Source: Acidobacteriota bacterium (lineage in GTDB: Bacteria; Acidobacteriota; Blastocatellia; Chloracidobacteriales; Chloracidobacteriaceae). Taken from it: 64,000 nucleotides of DNA. A program made the position numbers and the translations under genes. Below, in pieces: positions 12,466 to 64,000 of this stretch. A model generated the notes under the pieces. The model worked only from the letters and a program-made list of their open reading frames with translations. It was not told the DNA's origin and ran no database searches. The stretch's first letter is position 1, and each line of letters starts with the position of its first letter. Location of the stretch: NCBI GenBank assembly GCA_016208495.1, contig JACQXX010000083.1, forward strand, positions 1 through 64,000, in the 5' to 3' direction.

Positions 12466-12968
12466 AATGAAGAATGTGGTTAGTGATTAGTGGTTAGTGG
12501 TTAGTGGTTAGTTCTTGGGGTTCTTTGAAAGTATTGATTTCTAAGCACTAAGTACAAGTCCCCATAAAAGAGGAATGAAATTCAACCACTCGCTGGGAGA
12601 ACCATTGGTTTTCGCCCGGATGGGCGCTGGAAAATAGCCGGTGGCCAGTGTCGCTTTGGACACGCGGCCACCGGACAGAGCCGCCATCACGGGTTCGCGC
12701 CCGGATGGGCGCTGGAACAGGAGTCGTGAGCCAGAAGCCGAAAATTCGACGAAAACCGGGACCCGAACCAGCTTTCAGCGCCCATCCGGGCGCGAACCAC
12801 TGCGGACCGAAGCTCCGGTGGTGTGCCCAAAGCGGCAAACCACCGGCTATTGTCCGGCGCCCATCCGGGCGAAAGCCAATTCAGAGTAACCGAATTTCCA
12901 CCCCTTATTTATGGGGACTTGTACTAACCACTAACCACTAACCACTAAATGGTTTCTTCATTCTTCAT
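12466..12968. repeat. Composite stop-rich inverted-repeat element interrupted by a MITE
   Basis: Outer arms are GAATGAAGAATG (12466 on) and TTCTTCATTCTTCATT (to 12968). Inner arms are GTGGTTAGTGGTTAGT tandem units (12473-12514) and CCACTAACCACTAACC (12926-12949). The core TTCTTTGAAAGTATTGATTT (12521-12540) recurs, slightly changed, at 27168-27183 and 63920-63943. A 373-bp element is inserted at 12552-12924. The minus-strand FG-GAP gene stop (12969-12971) abuts the outer arm. The remaining gap sequence 12308-12465 shows nothing recognisable. Confidence 0.8.
12552..12924. mobile_element. MITE-like palindromic element with 17-bp terminal inverted repeats
   Basis: Ends are GTACAAGTCCCCATAAA and its exact inverse, flanked by a direct TAA (12549-12551 and 12925-12927). 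Inside are four copies of CGCCCGGATGGGCG in nested inverted arrangement (12613-12626 and 12698-12711 forward; 12779-12792 and 12858-12871 reverse), so most of the element could fold into a long hairpin. It encodes no transposase; ORFs read through it are artefacts of palindromic GC-rich DNA. A 3-bp TAA duplication fits the TNA targets known for part of the IS5 family, so an IS5-type transposase elsewhere may mobilise it (inference). Insertion is confirmed by uninterrupted relatives of the target sequence at 27180-27205 and 63940-63973. Confidence 0.8.
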
Positions 12969-15773: not shown

Positions 15774-16134
15774 TTCTTTGGAGGGCGGCCCACTTGACGC
15801 CGCTTTGAGCCTTAGGATTGAAGAGAATTTGCAGGATTTTGAATACGGCTATGACTAATGCTTGCAGCAACAGGTTGTATCAGCGAGGATTGCATCCAAT
15901 CATAGCCCGCAAATCATACCAGTTTGTGGTCAGTAGTCAGTAGTCAATAGTCAATAGCTCGCTAAACCTATTTGATTGAACTACCAGGCTGCTTTCTTAC
16001 ACGAGTGCCTCATTGCCAAATGGTATCAGCTTACGGGCAGAGCTTGTCGCAACCTCTGTGATTCGGGCATCATCAGACGCCTGCTGACACGCACCAATTT
16101 AATACACAATATCCCAAACAATTGACCTCATTTT
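15774..16134. other. Divergent intergenic region with two repeat fragments
   Basis: Separates the divergent FG-GAP gene and DUF3108 gene. It holds a degenerate copy of the GCGGC..TTGACGCCGCTTT repeat (15783-15811) and a tandem GTCAGTAGTCAGTAGTCAAT tract (15926-15962) related to one at 29905-29962. Both promoters should lie here but no convincing -35/-10 pair was found. Confidence 0.6.
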
Positions 16135-17106
16135 ATGAAAAATCGGCTGAAGTTTTTGTGCATTCTTTTTTTCCTGGTTATACCAACCTTGCTGGCGGCG
16201 CCAGATCTTCCACTCGTCGTCTCAGCCTGGCAGCAAGTCGCCACAACTGAAGCGGCAATTGAAACGGTTGTTCACTCAAAACCAAAAACCACCAGTGGGT
16301 CCAAAGTTGACCAGGTAGTTGTCACCCATCCTTTTCCGTTTCAAGTTGGCGAAAGCCTGACCTTTGAATTTAAGTTTTCCCGATTTCCCATCTATGGCAC
16401 CATCGGCCAGCTCAACATGAATGTGGTTCCACTCGAAAGCCTCACCGATGAAGTTAAAAAAGAAGACCCTGCCCAAATTCCAGCCAGCAAGTCCGCTGCG
16501 CAAGAAACGCGATTCGGATTGCGTGCCCTGGCCGAATCCAAAGGGTTTATTCCCGCGCTGTTTGGGCTCAAAGTGCGCGACACCTTTACTTCGATTGTGG
16601 ATCTCACTGATTTTTCAAGTCTTTACATGCGAAAAGACATTGATGAGGGCAAGAAACACAAAAAACAGGTTTCCTTGTTTCAGCGTGAAAAACCCGAAGT
16701 TCAGTTTTTAGAAACTGATTTATCCGTGGCCAATGCCCAGCCGGCTGTCCGAACGATTGAAGGCGTTCCCTGGACCACTGATCTGGTGTCTTTCTGGTAT
16801 ATGTTGCGAATGCAGCCGTTCAAAGAAGGCCAGACAATTCCAATGGTCCTCTATGACGACGGTAAAATCTTTAATGTAGACGTTGTGGTTGGAAAAAGTG
16901 AAAAAATCTCGGTCGAAGCCGGAAAATACACTGCCCGCAAACTGACCATTAAAGCCCACGAAGCCCAGTTCATTCGCCGCAAAGGCGAGTATCTCATCTG
17001 GATTTCAGAAGATAAAAACCGGCTTCCACTCAAAGTTCGTTTCCGCACCAGCAGCGGTACGTTAACGGCGGAACTGGTCAAAAAGAACATTCCCAGCCTG
17101 AAGTGA
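16135..17106 (+). CDS. DUF3108 domain-containing exported protein
   Basis: 323 aa. A signal peptide (MKNRLKFLCILFFLVIPTLL) is followed by a linker and a DUF3108-type beta-rich domain (about 65-320). It opens with PFQVGESLTFEFKFSRFPIY and has the family's later blocks VPWTTDLVSFWYMLR, DDGKIFNVDVVV, VEAGKYTARKLTI and RRKGEYLIWISEDKNRLPLKVRF. DUF3108 proteins are periplasmic or outer-membrane-associated proteins of unclear role with lipocalin-like barrels. No function is assigned here. It is transcribed convergently with mltG, and its TGA stop lies at the first unit of the GGTGACAA array. Confidence 0.88.
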   Translation: MKNRLKFLCILFFLVIPTLLAAPDLPLVVSAWQQVATTEAAIETVVHSKPKTTSGSKVDQVVVTHPFPFQVGESLTFEFKFSRFPIYGTIGQLNMNVVPLESLTDEVKKEDPAQIPASKSAAQETRFGLRALAESKGFIPALFGLKVRDTFTSIVDLTDFSSLYMRKDIDEGKKHKKQVSLFQREKPEVQFLETDLSVANAQPAVRTIEGVPWTTDLVSFWYMLRMQPFKEGQTIPMVLYDDGKIFNVDVVVGKSEKISVEAGKYTARKLTIKAHEAQFIRRKGEYLIWISEDKNRLPLKVRFRTSSGTLTAELVKKNIPSLK

Positions 17107-17202
17107 CTGGTGACAAGGTGACAAAGTGACAAGGTGACAAAGTGACAAAGTGACAAGGTGACTGGGTGACAAGGTGACAAGGTGACTGGGTGACAAGGTG
17201 AC
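17107..17202 (+). repeat. GGTGACAA 8-bp tandem array, forward arm
   Basis: About eleven units of RGTGACAA with occasional GGTGACTG variants, starting directly at the DUF3108 stop. Eight is not a multiple of three, so the TGA in each unit appears in all three forward frames. It is paired with the inverse array at 17396-17457; the 193-bp stretch between them holds no gene and is AT-rich. Confidence 0.9.
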
Positions 17203-17395
17203 AATAGATCATTCTGTCACTGAGGACTGTCCAAATTTTTCTGTAACCAGTCAATTCAACCTGGAAAAACCAGGTGATCGGCTCTTTCTTTAGTCACTAA
17301 ATATTGAATACAAACAGTTTATCTAAACTTAAAAACGAGCTAAAAATCCAGTCTAGCCATTTACACAAAAAACTAAAAAGTCTCTGCACTGTGTC

Positions 17396-17457
17396 AGATG
17401 TCACCTTGTCACCCAGTCCCCTTGTCACCTTGTCATTTGGTCACTTTGTCACCGTCT
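17396..17457 (-). repeat. GGTGACAA 8-bp tandem array, reverse arm
   Basis: Inverse complement of the array at 17107-17202. The mltG stop codon (TGA, 17449-17451) is inside its first unit as read on the minus strand. The two arms can pair to a long imperfect hairpin between the convergent DUF3108 and mltG genes, which may also act as a two-way terminator. Confidence 0.9.
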
Positions 17458-18498
17458 TCCCTGAAGTCGTCGATACTCAGCCACCGCTGCCGCATGTTCG
17501 GCTTCGTTTCGGGAAAAACGATGCTTCCCACCTTCATTCAAAACAAAGTAAATATATTCACTTTCAGCCGGATAGAGCGCGGCCTGGATTGATTTCAACC
17601 CTGGTGAGGCAATTGGTCCGGGAGGCAAACCCGGCGCCAGGTAGGTGTTATAAGGCGAGAGCGAACGCCGATGCTGAGGGTTATTGACATTTCCATCCCA
17701 GGTTCCGTCCAGCATCGCGGCATACATAAATGTTGGGTCACAATCCAGTCTCATGCCGCGTTTGAGCCGGTTGTGAAAGACACTGGAAATGAGCGCCCGG
17801 TCCTCGTCCACTTTTCCTTCTTTCTCAACCAGCGATGCCAGTGTCATCACCTGACGCACCGACATCCCAAGCTCTTTGGCACGCGCCTGAAACTGTGGCG
17901 AGAATACATCGCGAAACCGGCGTACCATCCGGGTCACAAGCTGGGCGCTGGTGGTATTTCCTGCGTAGACGTAAGTATCTGGAAATAAATACCCTTCCAG
18001 GTTTGAAGCCGACGGGTCGAGATCCCGGATCAAGGTAATATCGCGTAATTCGGCGACCACCGCCGGGCCATTGACAGGAGTTGATGAGTCACGATTTTTG
18101 AGCAACTCTTCAACTTCAAAGATATTCAAGCCTTCAGGAATCGTGAGTTCCCGAGTAACAACCTGCCCACGTTGGATCTTCTCAATCACCCTGAGCGGCG
18201 TAATCGGTGATTCAAACTGGTATTCGCCAGCCTGGAGCGGTCGTTGACTTCGATTGAGCGTCAGATACACCAGCAATGGAAACCGACTTGAAATAACCCC
18301 TTCCTGCCAGAGGCGAATCAGGATTCCTCGGGTACCCATACCGGATTCAATTTCAATAATGCGGTCCGCGGCCTCGTGCGTCAGGGGTGTTGTTAACGAG
18401 GAATACACCCAGTAGGCGAAGCCTCCACACAAAGCAATGATAATGCCGAGTCCAATCAGAACTGGCCTGATGCGGGCAAGAAATGGTTTTTTGGTCAT
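17449..18498 (-). CDS. mltG: Endolytic murein transglycosylase MltG
   Basis: 349 aa from the ATG at 18498; a GTG four codons earlier is also open. One N-terminal membrane helix (about 11-33) anchors it in the inner membrane with the catalytic domain outside. The YceG/MltG domain follows: LQAGEYQFE, LTIPEGLNIFEVEELL, LEGYLFPDTYVY, then the active-site segment LASLVEKEG with catalytic Glu225. HNRLKRGMRLDCDPTFMYA, SPYNTYLAPGLPPGPIASPG and FVLNEGGKHRFS complete the fold. MltG cleaves nascent glycan strands within the peptidoglycan and sets strand length. The upstream region is filled with GGGCTGA-type repeats, so the ribosome-binding site is unclear. The stop codon lies in a GGTGACAA repeat unit. 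Confidence 0.95.
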   Translation of the reverse strand: MTKKPFLARIRPVLIGLGIIIALCGGFAYWVYSSLTTPLTHEAADRIIEIESGMGTRGILIRLWQEGVISSRFPLLVYLTLNRSQRPLQAGEYQFESPITPLRVIEKIQRGQVVTRELTIPEGLNIFEVEELLKNRDSSTPVNGPAVVAELRDITLIRDLDPSASNLEGYLFPDTYVYAGNTTSAQLVTRMVRRFRDVFSPQFQARAKELGMSVRQVMTLASLVEKEGKVDEDRALISSVFHNRLKRGMRLDCDPTFMYAAMLDGTWDGNVNNPQHRRSLSPYNTYLAPGLPPGPIASPGLKSIQAALYPAESEYIYFVLNEGGKHRFSRNEAEHAAAVAEYRRLQGRR

Positions 18499-18809
18499 GA
18501 GTGAGTGCACTAGGGCTCAGGGCTGAAAAATCCTCGGGCTGAGGGCTTGGGGCTGAAGAAGTCGGGCTGAAAACATCGGGCTGAAGACATTGGGCTGAAG
18601 ACATTGGTTTTATACTATTTTGGGCTGAGGGTATCGGGCTAAGGGCTGAGGGAAATACAATTCTTTCAATAATTTAGCCTTCCCATAACAAGAGAGGTTC
18701 ATTCCAAAATGGTATTATTTCATCCCTCATCCTTCATCCCTCATCCCTTCCTTTGCTCCGAGCTTGCGAGTCTTCAGCCCCAAGCCCTGAGCCCTGGTTT
18801 TCTCAGCTC
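18499..18809. repeat. GGGCTGA-family inverted repeat pair
   Basis: Forward-strand copies GGGCTGAAGACATCGGGCTG and variants fill 18515-18660. An inverted set ending CCAAGCCCTGAGCCCTGG occupies 18766-18806, just after the minus-strand stop of the winged-helix/YggX gene. Short CATCCCTCATCC repeats lie between. Related copies are at 26818-26857, 58389-58595 and 59156-59281. No gene is present. Confidence 0.85.
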
Positions 18810-26841: not shown

Positions 26842-27222
26842 AAACCAGGGCTAAGGGACTGTAAAAATACAACTTCCCGTTTTTATCGAAAGTCACCCGG
26901 AGAGATCGAATTTCAGAACAGGAAACCACGAAATACACGAAAAACACGAAAAAGAAATCCAAAGACTTCAATGGGGTCTGAGCTTTTGTCAGGGAAAGTG
27001 CCACCGAACTCAAAAGAAAATGGCTTCGACCCAAATGAAAATCGGGAAGTAATAGCCGTGGTGCGAAGCCCACGGTCACGGCCAGGACGCGCCCAATCCC
27101 GATAAAAGCATTGTTCAATTTTCTTTTTAGGGCTGAAGAAGACGGCTGAAGAAGCTTGACTGATTCGAAAGCGTTGATTTCTAACCACTAACCACTAACC
27201 ACTCTTTAGTTTCTTCATTCCA
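26842..27222. repeat. Repeat-filled gap between cydB and the DUF445 gene
   Basis: Contains in order: GGGCTGA-type copies (to 26857); ACCACGAAATACACGAAAAA (26926-26945), also near 46332; the 41-bp dispersed repeat (27049-27089, reverse of 54474-54514); more GGGCTGA units (27127-27150); and a half-element with TTGATTTCTAACCACTAACC (27174-27193) then TTTCTTCATTC abutting the minus-strand stop at 27223. No gene is seen. Confidence 0.8.
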
Positions 27223-51189: not shown

Positions 51190-51756
51190 AATGCGCCTCC
51201 AGATTGTCGGTTGATGTGCATTGTTCGGAAGGAAAATGTGGGGCCTCGACCTTCAAGTAAACACCATGAAACCTGGAGTTACAAGCACCTTTCTAGTTTT
51301 ATGAACTGCTCATGGTTCATCCGAATAAGCACCTGAAGCTCCAGGGAAACTTCAAGTTTAACCAGTTTCGGCTGTGCCGATCTGTCATTTTGTAACTTTC
51401 TGCTCACATCGCTGTAACGCAAGGCTCACAGACCCTGGATAAGAATCCCTGTTTTCATTTCTGTCATGACTTCCCTCTAAAATCTTTATTTGTGCACGCT
51501 GGCGCAAGCCATTGATCTGGCTTATTCGCAGCAAGTGTGTGGCAACAAATAACTAAGGGAGTCGGATGGAAATATCATACCACCAGGGTTCAGGGTTCAG
51601 GGCCAGATACTCCACGTTGCGTGGTACCCGCCAGTTCCCCAGTCTTCATCTTGAGTGGGATCAGTCAACTCATCGCCGAAACCCTGAACCCTGAACCCTG
51701 AACCCGATTTCAGTGGGATTTTATGCTTTTCGCGATATGTTCGAATTTGTTTTCTG
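51190..51756. other. Intergenic region between propeller kinase and surface protein
   Basis: Divergent promoters expected. No gene seen. Contains a palindromic pair of heptamer tracts: GGGTTCAGGGTTCAGGG (51586-51602) and CCCTGAACCCTGAACCCTGA (51682-51701), about 80 bp apart. Sequence upstream (51240-51560) shows nothing recognisable. Confidence 0.55.
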
Positions 51757-54351: not shown

Positions 54352-54842
54352 AAATGACAAGATGACAGGGTGACAGGATGACAAGGTGACAAGATGACAA
54401 GATGATAAGGTGACAGAATGACAAGGTGACAAATTTGTTTATTTTCAACCTTGTCACCTTGTTGGGTTTGGGTCGTCCTGGCCGTGACCGTGGGCTTCGC
54501 ACCACGGCTATTACACGATGACCCTCCGGGCCTGAAATCCTTATCCTGGCGCTTATGGGGGGCAGGGTTTTCGAAGAAATGTCGCCCTGTCACCTTGTCA
54601 CCTTGTCATCTTGTCATCTTGTCACCGTGTCACCCTCTCTCCTTGTCATCTTCACCGCTTTTTTTCTTCCCTCCATTGCCAATTCCTGACTAACTCATAT
54701 AATCGGGGCACGTCTTTATTTTCTTTTTCCTCAGCACCTTTCATCGCATTTTTTCTTCAGCATGCATCCTGGCATTTCTCAAGACTGACCAGATCAAATC
54801 GAAGGTGCCGTCTTCTTTTTTCGTTCAACCGAGGGCCCTGAT
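54352..54842. repeat. GACAAG arrays flanking a copy of the 41-bp repeat
   Basis: Forward GGTGACAA-type array (54354-54432), short inverse TTGTCACCTTGTTG (54461-54474), the 41-bp dispersed repeat (54474-54514), then an inverse CCTTGTCACC array (54589-54655). The segment 54656-54842 upstream of the acyl-CoA dehydrogenase start is pyrimidine-rich and holds no recognised promoter. Confidence 0.85.
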
Positions 54843-58307: not shown

Positions 58308-58690
58308 GATACAAACGGCATCCTTTCAACATGTTGATCGAAACAGGCATATTACCACGCATCGGCCTCGGCGACACCCGAAGTACCGGTTTGGGGCTGA
58401 AGAAGCCAGGCTAAAGACATTGGGCTCAGGGCTTGGGGCTGAAGAAGACAGGTTGCAGAATTGGTTTTATTTCATCCCTCATCCCTTTGATCACCCCGAG
58501 CTTGCGAGTCTTCCACTCCAAGCCCTGAGCCTGACTTCTTCAGTCCGTTGTCTTCCGCCCGTCGTCTTCCGCCCGATGTCTTCCGCCCCAGAACAAGGGA
58601 TAATCGCTTGCCGCATAACGGGTTTGCGCTTACCCTGGCGGTATTCCCGTTTTATCTTCAACCAGTCAATTTTTCAGAGGAGTCTTTCCA
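58308..58690. repeat. GGGCTGA-family inverted repeat pair upstream of bcp
   Basis: Forward-strand units GGGCTGAAGAAGCCAGGCTA and GGGCTCAGGGCTTGGGGCTG (58392-58445), then the inverse set (GAGCTTGCGAGTCTTCCACT at 58498 on, and CGTCTTCCGCCCGATGTCTT at 58562 on). Short ORFs read through it are repeat artefacts. The promoters of rnj and bcp must be at its edges. Confidence 0.8.
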
Positions 58691-59149: not shown

Positions 59150-59286
59150 TTGCTTTGGGGGCTGAGAAAACCAGGGCTCAGGGCAATCGAAGGGATGAGG
59201 GATGAAAGAAAACCAATTCTTCAGCCCTCAGCCCCAAGCCCTCAGCCCTGGTTTTCCCAGCCCAATGTCTTCAGCCCCAGATTCCT
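59150..59286. repeat. GGGCTGA-family inverted pair between bcp and coaE
   Basis: GGGCTGAGAAAACCAGGGCT (59159-59178) and GGGATGAGGGATGAAAG, then the inverse CAGCCCTGGTTTTCCCAGCC (59242-59261). The arms are almost exact complements and can fold. The coaE start is only a few bases beyond, with no clear ribosome-binding site. Confidence 0.85.
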
Positions 59287-63853: not shown

Positions 63854-64000
63854 AAGAAGAACTGAAGAATGAAGAAACCATTTAGTGGTTAGTGGCTAGT
63901 GATTAGTTCTTGGCTTCTGACTTTTCTTCGAAAGTATTGATTTCTAACCACTAACCACTAACCACTAACCACTTTTTTCATTCTTCATTCTCAATTCTTC
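63854..64000. repeat. Uninterrupted GAATGAAGAA/GTGGTTA inverted-repeat element
   Basis: Starts right after the nrdA stop with AAGAAGAACTGAAGAATGAA, then TTAGTGGTTAGTGGCTAGTG, core TTCGAAAGTATTGATTTCTA, then ACCACTAACCACTAACCACT and TTCATTCTTCATTCTC at the right edge. It is the intact counterpart of the element at 12466-12968 and shows the MITE empty site there. Confidence 0.85.

Follow-up and report, generated by a model that had tools for sequence, protein, structure and literature searches.

Facing tandem-repeat arrays in a nearly constant G-first order in intergenic gaps of a Chloracidobacteriaceae genome and its relatives

The window spans 64,000 nt at the start of contig C83 (bases 1-64000) in an 8.38-Mb Acidobacteriota genome (G000). 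Two convergent ORFs, 16135-17106 on the + strand and 17449-18510 on the - strand, flank a pair of short tandem arrays that face each other across a core, with the left array beginning 2 bp past the end of the + gene. A sequence-only reading of this DNA had described an array and its exact inverse here. The inverted arrays are present, with the refined boundaries given in Table 1, but the arms are 91% complementary across 54 nt and the inverse is thus not exact. Inverted arrays also lie at all seven further sites listed in that reading. The convergent setting that it described applies to the focal site. The ORFs around 18515, 54354, 59159 and 12473 are instead co-directional, and those around 51586 and 58392 divergent. 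An Rfam search of the window gave zero matches.

Table 1. Paired arrays and associated features in the window, and paired arrays in the S10/spc operon of genome G014
Feature	Coordinates or locus	Strand	Details
Left G-rich arm, focal element	17109..17204	+	12 copies of GGTGACAA with variants; TRF, G..C pairing
Core, focal element	17205..17398	.	194 bp, without called gene; a portion is shared with the L109:3703-4023 core (GGACTGTCCAAATTTTTCTGTAACC...)
Right C-rich arm, focal element	17399..17453	-	6.9 copies of TTGTCACC; TRF; extends to the 3' end of the mltG-like ORF 17449-18510
GGGCTGA-like (left) and TCAGCCC/TCATCCC (right) pair	18515..18806	.	Gap between co-directional ORFs
CAGGGTT ... AACCCTG pair	51586..51705	.	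Within a larger dispersed repeat beginning TAAGGGAGTCGG; divergent ORFs; RNA hairpin -55.4 kcal/mol, z -5.2
ATGACAAG/GGTGACAA pair	54354..54652	.	73-nt arms, 85% complementary; core 147 bp; co-directional ORFs
GGGCTGA-type pair	58392..58595	.	Divergent ORFs on either side
GGGCTGA/GGGATGA-type pair	59159..59281	.	Occupies almost all of a 137-bp gap between two + ORFs; hairpin z -6.3
GTGGTTA left arm with GAATGAA outer unit	12476..12512	+	TRF, inverted-repeat evidence
Nested MITE	12552..12924	.	TIR GTACAAGTCCCCATAAA; TAA duplicated at flanks; sits in right arm of GTGGTTA element
GTGGTTA right arm (ACTAACC)	12923..12948	-	TRF
GTGGTTA element	63880..63973	.	Conserved family core TTCTTCGAAAGTATTGATTT; TTCATTC outer units; hairpin z -6.7
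rplW-rplB ATTGCGG; rplB-rpsS AGGACTG; rpsC-rplP GGTAGCC	G014 L156		TRF
rpsQ-rplN ATTGCGG; rplE-rpsN GCAGGCA; rpsN-rpsH AATGAGT	G014 L156		TRF

Other small elements are intermingled with these pairs. The inverted arrays at 12473-12949 are as first described, but most of what had been taken for their core is a separate MITE of 373 bp nested in the right arm, with perfect 17-bp TIRs and REP-like CGCCCGGATGGGCG palindromes. An apparently identical TIR interrupts a GGTGACAA array elsewhere. A small element at 15915-16026, with ends ATACCAGTTTG...CAAATGGTAT, contains an AGTAGTC-type array; its relatives have inserted into elements of the GTGGTTA and AGGGTTC families, and one of them (L115:13337) is flanked by a TTA duplication.

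We sampled 1.23 Mb of G000 as 20-kb stretches, with arrays called by TRF. A further 1.09 Mb came from the relative G001, which belongs to another genus of the same family (MltG identity to G000 66%). Gene calling was ad hoc for both samples. A unit is written G-first by its excess of G over C, and the C-rich array is its inverse; most units are purine-rich as well, with AGTTTTG as one exception. The units of the 545 arrays in the G000 sample (442 per Mb) span 6-10 nt; period 7 accounts for 365 arrays, period 8 for 106 and period 9 for 62. About ten unit families recur, contrary to the initial impression of different units in each element. Long arrays lie at or close to the ends of several G001 contigs (L142, L147, L137 and L146); assembly probably breaks at such arrays, which makes the counts underestimates.

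Pairing greatly exceeds random placement, and the observation thereby survives the refuting test named in the sequence-only reading. Among adjacent same-unit arrays within 800 bp in G000, 70 inverted pairs open with the G-rich array (G..C), one opens with the C-rich array (C..G) and 10 pairs are direct, against approximately 5.5, 5.6 and 10.8 after shuffling of the labels. Taking the next same-unit array within 800 bp gives 89 G..C, 2 C..G and 13 direct. Beyond 800 bp the excess shifts to C..G, as is expected between neighbouring elements. Within 300 bp, 182 of the 354 heptamer and 43 of the 104 octamer arrays (225 of 458 together) have an inverse unit on their inner side, against 7 and 0, respectively, with one on the outer side.

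The polarity is true of every major unit in both genomes. Same-unit pairs in G001 number 111 G..C, 4 C..G and 5 direct, and over the two genomes the G-first polarity has a binomial p of about 2e-51. A strict GTGGTTA pattern across the whole G000 genome yields 25 G..C and 0 C..G. Clusters of 7-8-mer arrays in G000 show the +- order 101 times and the -+ order once, so that neighbours with unlike units follow the polarity too. The main units of G001, ACTGAGG, AGGGTTC, AATTGAG, AGTCTTGGG and AGTTTTG, are mostly other than those of G000. In small samples from other families, the G-first to C-first counts at the standard threshold are 6:0 in G014, 2:0 in G033 and 1:0 in G026 (9:0 summed), and the array-poor G003, G022 and G023 have zero pairs within the sampled sequence. 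The rule thus extends to at least two genera, plus the smaller samples from other families.

Nine-nucleotide units vary in this respect. The 9-mer AGTCTTGGG forms pairs in G001, whereas the 9-mer arrays of G000 have no inverse partner within 300 bp even in a looser partner search. Among the latter, AAAACACGA and AAAAGGACG arrays (26923-26953 of the window and other loci) are never paired. CAGGGTT pairs frequently enclose arrays of the AAAAGGACG type; those of the CGTGTTTTT type carry their own conserved flanks.

Paired 7-8-mer arrays are intergenic in nearly all cases. The G..C pairs assignable to a gap in the G000 sample comprise 56 of 81 in co-directional, 17 in convergent and 8 in divergent gaps, and divergent gaps are used less (30/80 versus 216/407, p=0.014). 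In co-directional gaps the median distance from the stop codon to the start of the array is 5.5 bp in G000 and 3 bp in G001, and that from the end of the array to the next start is 82 and 14 bp, respectively. Where a single array lies no more than 60 bp from a gene, its G-rich strand reads outward in 76 cases and inward in 11 (p=4e-13), alike at 5' and 3' gene ends. Nested shells also occur, in which GAATGAA units often surround GTGGTTA arrays.

Two causes of the G-first order could be set aside. G-quadruplex formation was rejected, as several units are unable to form one; GAATGAA, AATTATG and AGTAGTC, for instance, contain no GG tract but are paired in the usual manner. Protection of translation starts in the 5' UTR was rejected as the whole reason, since convergent gaps, which contain no start codon for a ribosome-binding site to serve, keep the polarity (17:0 in G000 and 24:1 in G001). 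The polarity must be imposed by some mechanism or selective force, which is open to testing. Slippage alone is the usual account of short tandem repeats in bacteria, but here one rule spans hundreds of loci whatever the unit.

Pairs also lie inside the S10/spc operon of G014 (L156; gene names from translations), in which TRF detected them at six junctions (Table 1); a weaker seventh, between rplV and rpsC, was found by eye. Seven same-genome pairs are known from G014, six of them in this one ribosomal operon, with several different units. The operon pairs start at or beside a stop codon and finish right before the next ribosome-binding site, and some of their cores measure just 8-13 bp. Their RNA is predicted to form strong hairpins (z -5 to -11), which an essential transcript evidently tolerates.

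Orthologous gaps differ in content between G000 and G001. The check for presence and absence that the sequence-only reading had proposed was applied to the nineteen conserved adjacent gene pairs common to the two samples, and both empty and filled gaps were seen. At L071:17250 the G000 gap is 307 bp with an AGTCAGT pair and its G001 counterpart is 12 bp and empty; conversely, at L213:17132 the G001 gap is 152 bp with an AGGGTTC pair and the G000 counterpart is 21 bp and empty. Elsewhere both genomes carry arrays with unlike units: GAATGAA/GTGGTTA versus AGTCTTGGG/AGTTTTG, AGCGAGT versus AGTCTTGG, and AATTATG versus AATTGAG. Thus, both gain or loss and unit replacement occur. Visual inspection of a few empty/filled junctions revealed no target-site duplication (TSD), although the relatives are too distant for exact junctions to be placed. 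Nested TIR MITEs do carry TAA/TTA duplications.

Similarity among cores, also proposed as a check, gave a divided answer. Cores in G001 are mostly unrelated: only 4 of 36 ACTGAGG and 2 of 33 AATTGAG cores resemble another of their family, and median core lengths for the five main units are 59-72 bp. The exceptions are in G000, where cores are similar in 17 of 20 GTGGTTA and 11 of 13 AGTAGTC elements. The GTGGTTA core contains ...TTCTTCTTCGAAAGTATTGATTT..., and TCGAAAGTATTGATTT from this core has 35 matches at up to 2 mismatches in the 1.23 Mb, most of them adjoining GTGGTTA arrays at unrelated sites. Near the start of L061 a core of this family (TTGGTTCCTGGTTCTTCTTCGAAAGTATTGATTTCTAACCACTAACCACTC) is itself in tandem with a 52-bp period. 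The CAGGGTT arrays lie in the larger dispersed repeat that begins with TAAGGGAGTCGG, and the core of this repeat differs among copies. A single process or element structure therefore recurs, some versions of which act as dispersed elements. The view that no known MITE class fits stands insofar as the architecture recurs and is unlike that of an ordinary MITE, but the GTGGTTA and AGTAGTC families behave like dispersed MITEs.

The arms themselves are matched locus by locus. Arms are more alike within an element than between elements of the same unit for AGGGTTC (p=0.0005 and 0.001 in two genomes), AAGAATG (p=0.0005) and AAGGTGAC (p=0.0085); the test was not significant for AGTGGTT, AGTAGTC, AGCGAGT and ACTGAGG, and has little power where arms are nearly perfect. 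At L195:19384-19573 an interruption, GACCAATCTCA, is exactly mirrored in both arms and the flanks are unlike. Mirror similarity of the outer flanks, past the arrays, is mostly absent, so the symmetry stops at the array edge. TTCGAA is 5.4-fold enriched in arms relative to the genome average. Such locally matched arms point either to putative arm-to-arm copying by way of a hairpin or to duplication of an entire arm in inverted orientation.

Pairing, G-first polarity, matched arms, and both presence/absence and unit exchange at orthologous gaps are observed. The reading that we tentatively prefer, and to which we give somewhat less than an even chance, is that these are palindromic repeats made through slippage growth and fold-back copying of one arm from the other, in gaps behind stop codons. 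A short G-rich, usually purine-rich, array would arise or be seeded at the edge of a gap, mostly directly behind a stop codon, and lengthen through replication slippage. The nascent strand would then fold back, so that the 5' arm is copied into a C-rich 3' arm by hairpin-templated template switching of the quasipalindrome type. Recurrent slippage and arm-to-arm copying would keep the arms matched at each locus while units diverge among loci and genomes. Selection may restrict the elements to non-coding gaps, with the transcript hairpin keeping the next start site free, and some versions may have turned into dispersed MITE-like families.

The slippage and fold-back steps are what we infer, together with the reason for the G-first order. 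The model explains the matched arms, mirrored interruptions, sharp edges, locus-to-locus differences in unit and unrelated cores. The G-first order follows only on the assumption that a G-rich 5' arm, once made, favours fold-back copying. Fold-back copying alone explains neither the strictness of that order nor how dozens of loci whose cores are unrelated come to carry one exact unit. The spread of a unit to many loci would be explained by ectopic copying out of arrays already present or by an enzyme that adds repeats from a template.

Element dispersal is what the shared GTGGTTA cores indicate for that family, and this counts against the fold-back reading. More broadly, all pairs could be foldback- or MITE-type transposable elements whose TIRs are the tandem arrays and which are moved whole by a transposase encoded elsewhere, as the 35 core matches at mostly unrelated sites, the similar AGTAGTC cores and the empty or filled orthologous gaps would suggest. 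We consider this unlikely as a general account, though a serious one, because the cores of the commonest G001 units are mostly unrelated, unlike units keep the polarity too, the few junctions inspected show no TSD and nearly all units in the G014 ribosomal operon are unlike each other. Selection for functional intergenic hairpins, acting as bidirectional terminators or as elements that process or stabilize mRNA, with the units incidental, would fit the strong predicted RNA hairpins (z -5 to -12), the start of arrays a few base pairs past stop codons and the lower use of divergent gaps. TTTT within 8 nt after the C arm is also about twofold enriched (9.3% versus 3.8%, and 13.2% versus 6.0%). 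About 90% of C arms lack a T-run, however, leaving the hairpin-plus-T-run signature of an intrinsic terminator incomplete, and strong termination would be harmful inside S10/spc, which makes a general terminator function unlikely; a terminator role is possible for a subset and does not account for the whole. Hairpin selection needs neither a tandem unit, a shared unit nor a G-first order, and orthologous gaps may be wholly devoid of pairs, so we regard it as improbable.

The strict G-first order, matched units, unrelated cores and nested shells are what would be predicted if repeats were added from a template to both 3' ends of a chromosome break, in a telomerase- or DRT10-like manner, and the ends then rejoined; a bacterial reverse transcriptase (RT) that makes tandem repeats is known (DRT10, PMC12632851). 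Yet G000 has only two RVT_1 genes for ten or more units, and the mirrored interruptions better suit arm-to-arm copying. The intact RT, of ~520 aa, is of retron type XIII (PADLOC RT_XIII, E 7e-200; L124:961-2511, G000:C70), and its neighbours are a Uma2 protein and an ORF of 180 aa that matched no family. This RT is present in several array-rich genomes, but it was rejected as the array maker because G021 has paired AGGGTTC arrays without an RT_XIII match, and as a general cause also because G071, G085 and G025 have unpaired arrays without one. We therefore hold repeat addition at breaks to be very unlikely. Equally doubtful to us is the wider proposal that a polarity-specific activity in this bacterial class adds tandem 7-9-nt repeats to 3' ends, or to fold-back intermediates, at gene edges; it would use a small lineage-specific set of units with the G-rich strand always out of genes, and would be telomere-like, yet internal and genome-wide. 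Mobilization of REPIN-like units by Y1 (RAYT) transposases is suggested by the inverted pairs behind stop codons, which look REPIN-like, and by nine Y1_Tnp matches in G000. Of 19 genomes sampled, 17 have Y1 genes, G022 and G023 among them, although these two lack pairs in the sampled sequence; Y1 genes were rejected as a discriminating cause for being too widespread. Given also the many unrelated arm units, we attach hardly any probability to this explanation. Searches of plasmids for the elements gave just chance-length matches to CTAACCA runs, some of them in plasmid loci of Fischerella and Pseudoalteromonas that contained no pairs in the sampled 37-40 kb.

Several known systems share parts of this architecture. 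Foldback (FB-type) transposons, of which Tetris from Drosophila virilis is one (PMC4079207), resemble the arrays here in having inverted repeats of tandem units around a variable core. They differ in being eukaryotic, with longer units and dispersal as elements; no transposase was found for the present arrays. The BrickBuilt MITE of Porphyromonas gingivalis is likewise bacterial and intergenic with a tandem repeat inside, but has a single central 23-nt array with small inverted ends and not two facing arrays (PMC4596501). TAACTGA and other heptamer direct repeats are found in Beggiatoaceae, Cyanobacteria and Bacteroidetes (MacGregor 2015, PMC4679880). These are also intergenic, lineage-specific and variable in presence between relatives, but they are almost wholly direct (169 sets against one indirect in one genome) and mostly upstream of start codons.

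The closest match, which contradicts the earlier view that nothing known fits, is in Xanthomonas, where GGGAATC heptamer arrays form 70 (Xcc) and 75 (Xac) convergently oriented intergenic pairs that hug gene ends (Rehm et al. 2015, PMC4692102). That study favoured G-quadruplexes and did not find a function; the GGGGA(C/T)T repeats of Nostoc form few pairs (PMC4692102). Common to both systems are heptamers, intergenic location, a G-rich strand leaving the adjacent gene, scarcity in divergent gaps and convergent inverted pairs, seen here as 89:2:13 for pairing and 76 versus 11 for outward reading at short distance. The arrays described here are accordingly a variant of paired heptamer repeats, a layout already known for one word in Xanthomonas. 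They differ in that the single Xanthomonas unit is capable of forming a G-quadruplex, whereas many of the present units are not, and the nested shells and exchangeable cores are further differences. The combination of features was not found in the literature searched, which covered few subscription journals. What is added here is many 7-9-nt units per genome, many of them unable to form a quadruplex, a polarity common to all major units, unlike units at orthologous gaps, arms matched at each locus, and the examples in the ribosomal operon of G014.
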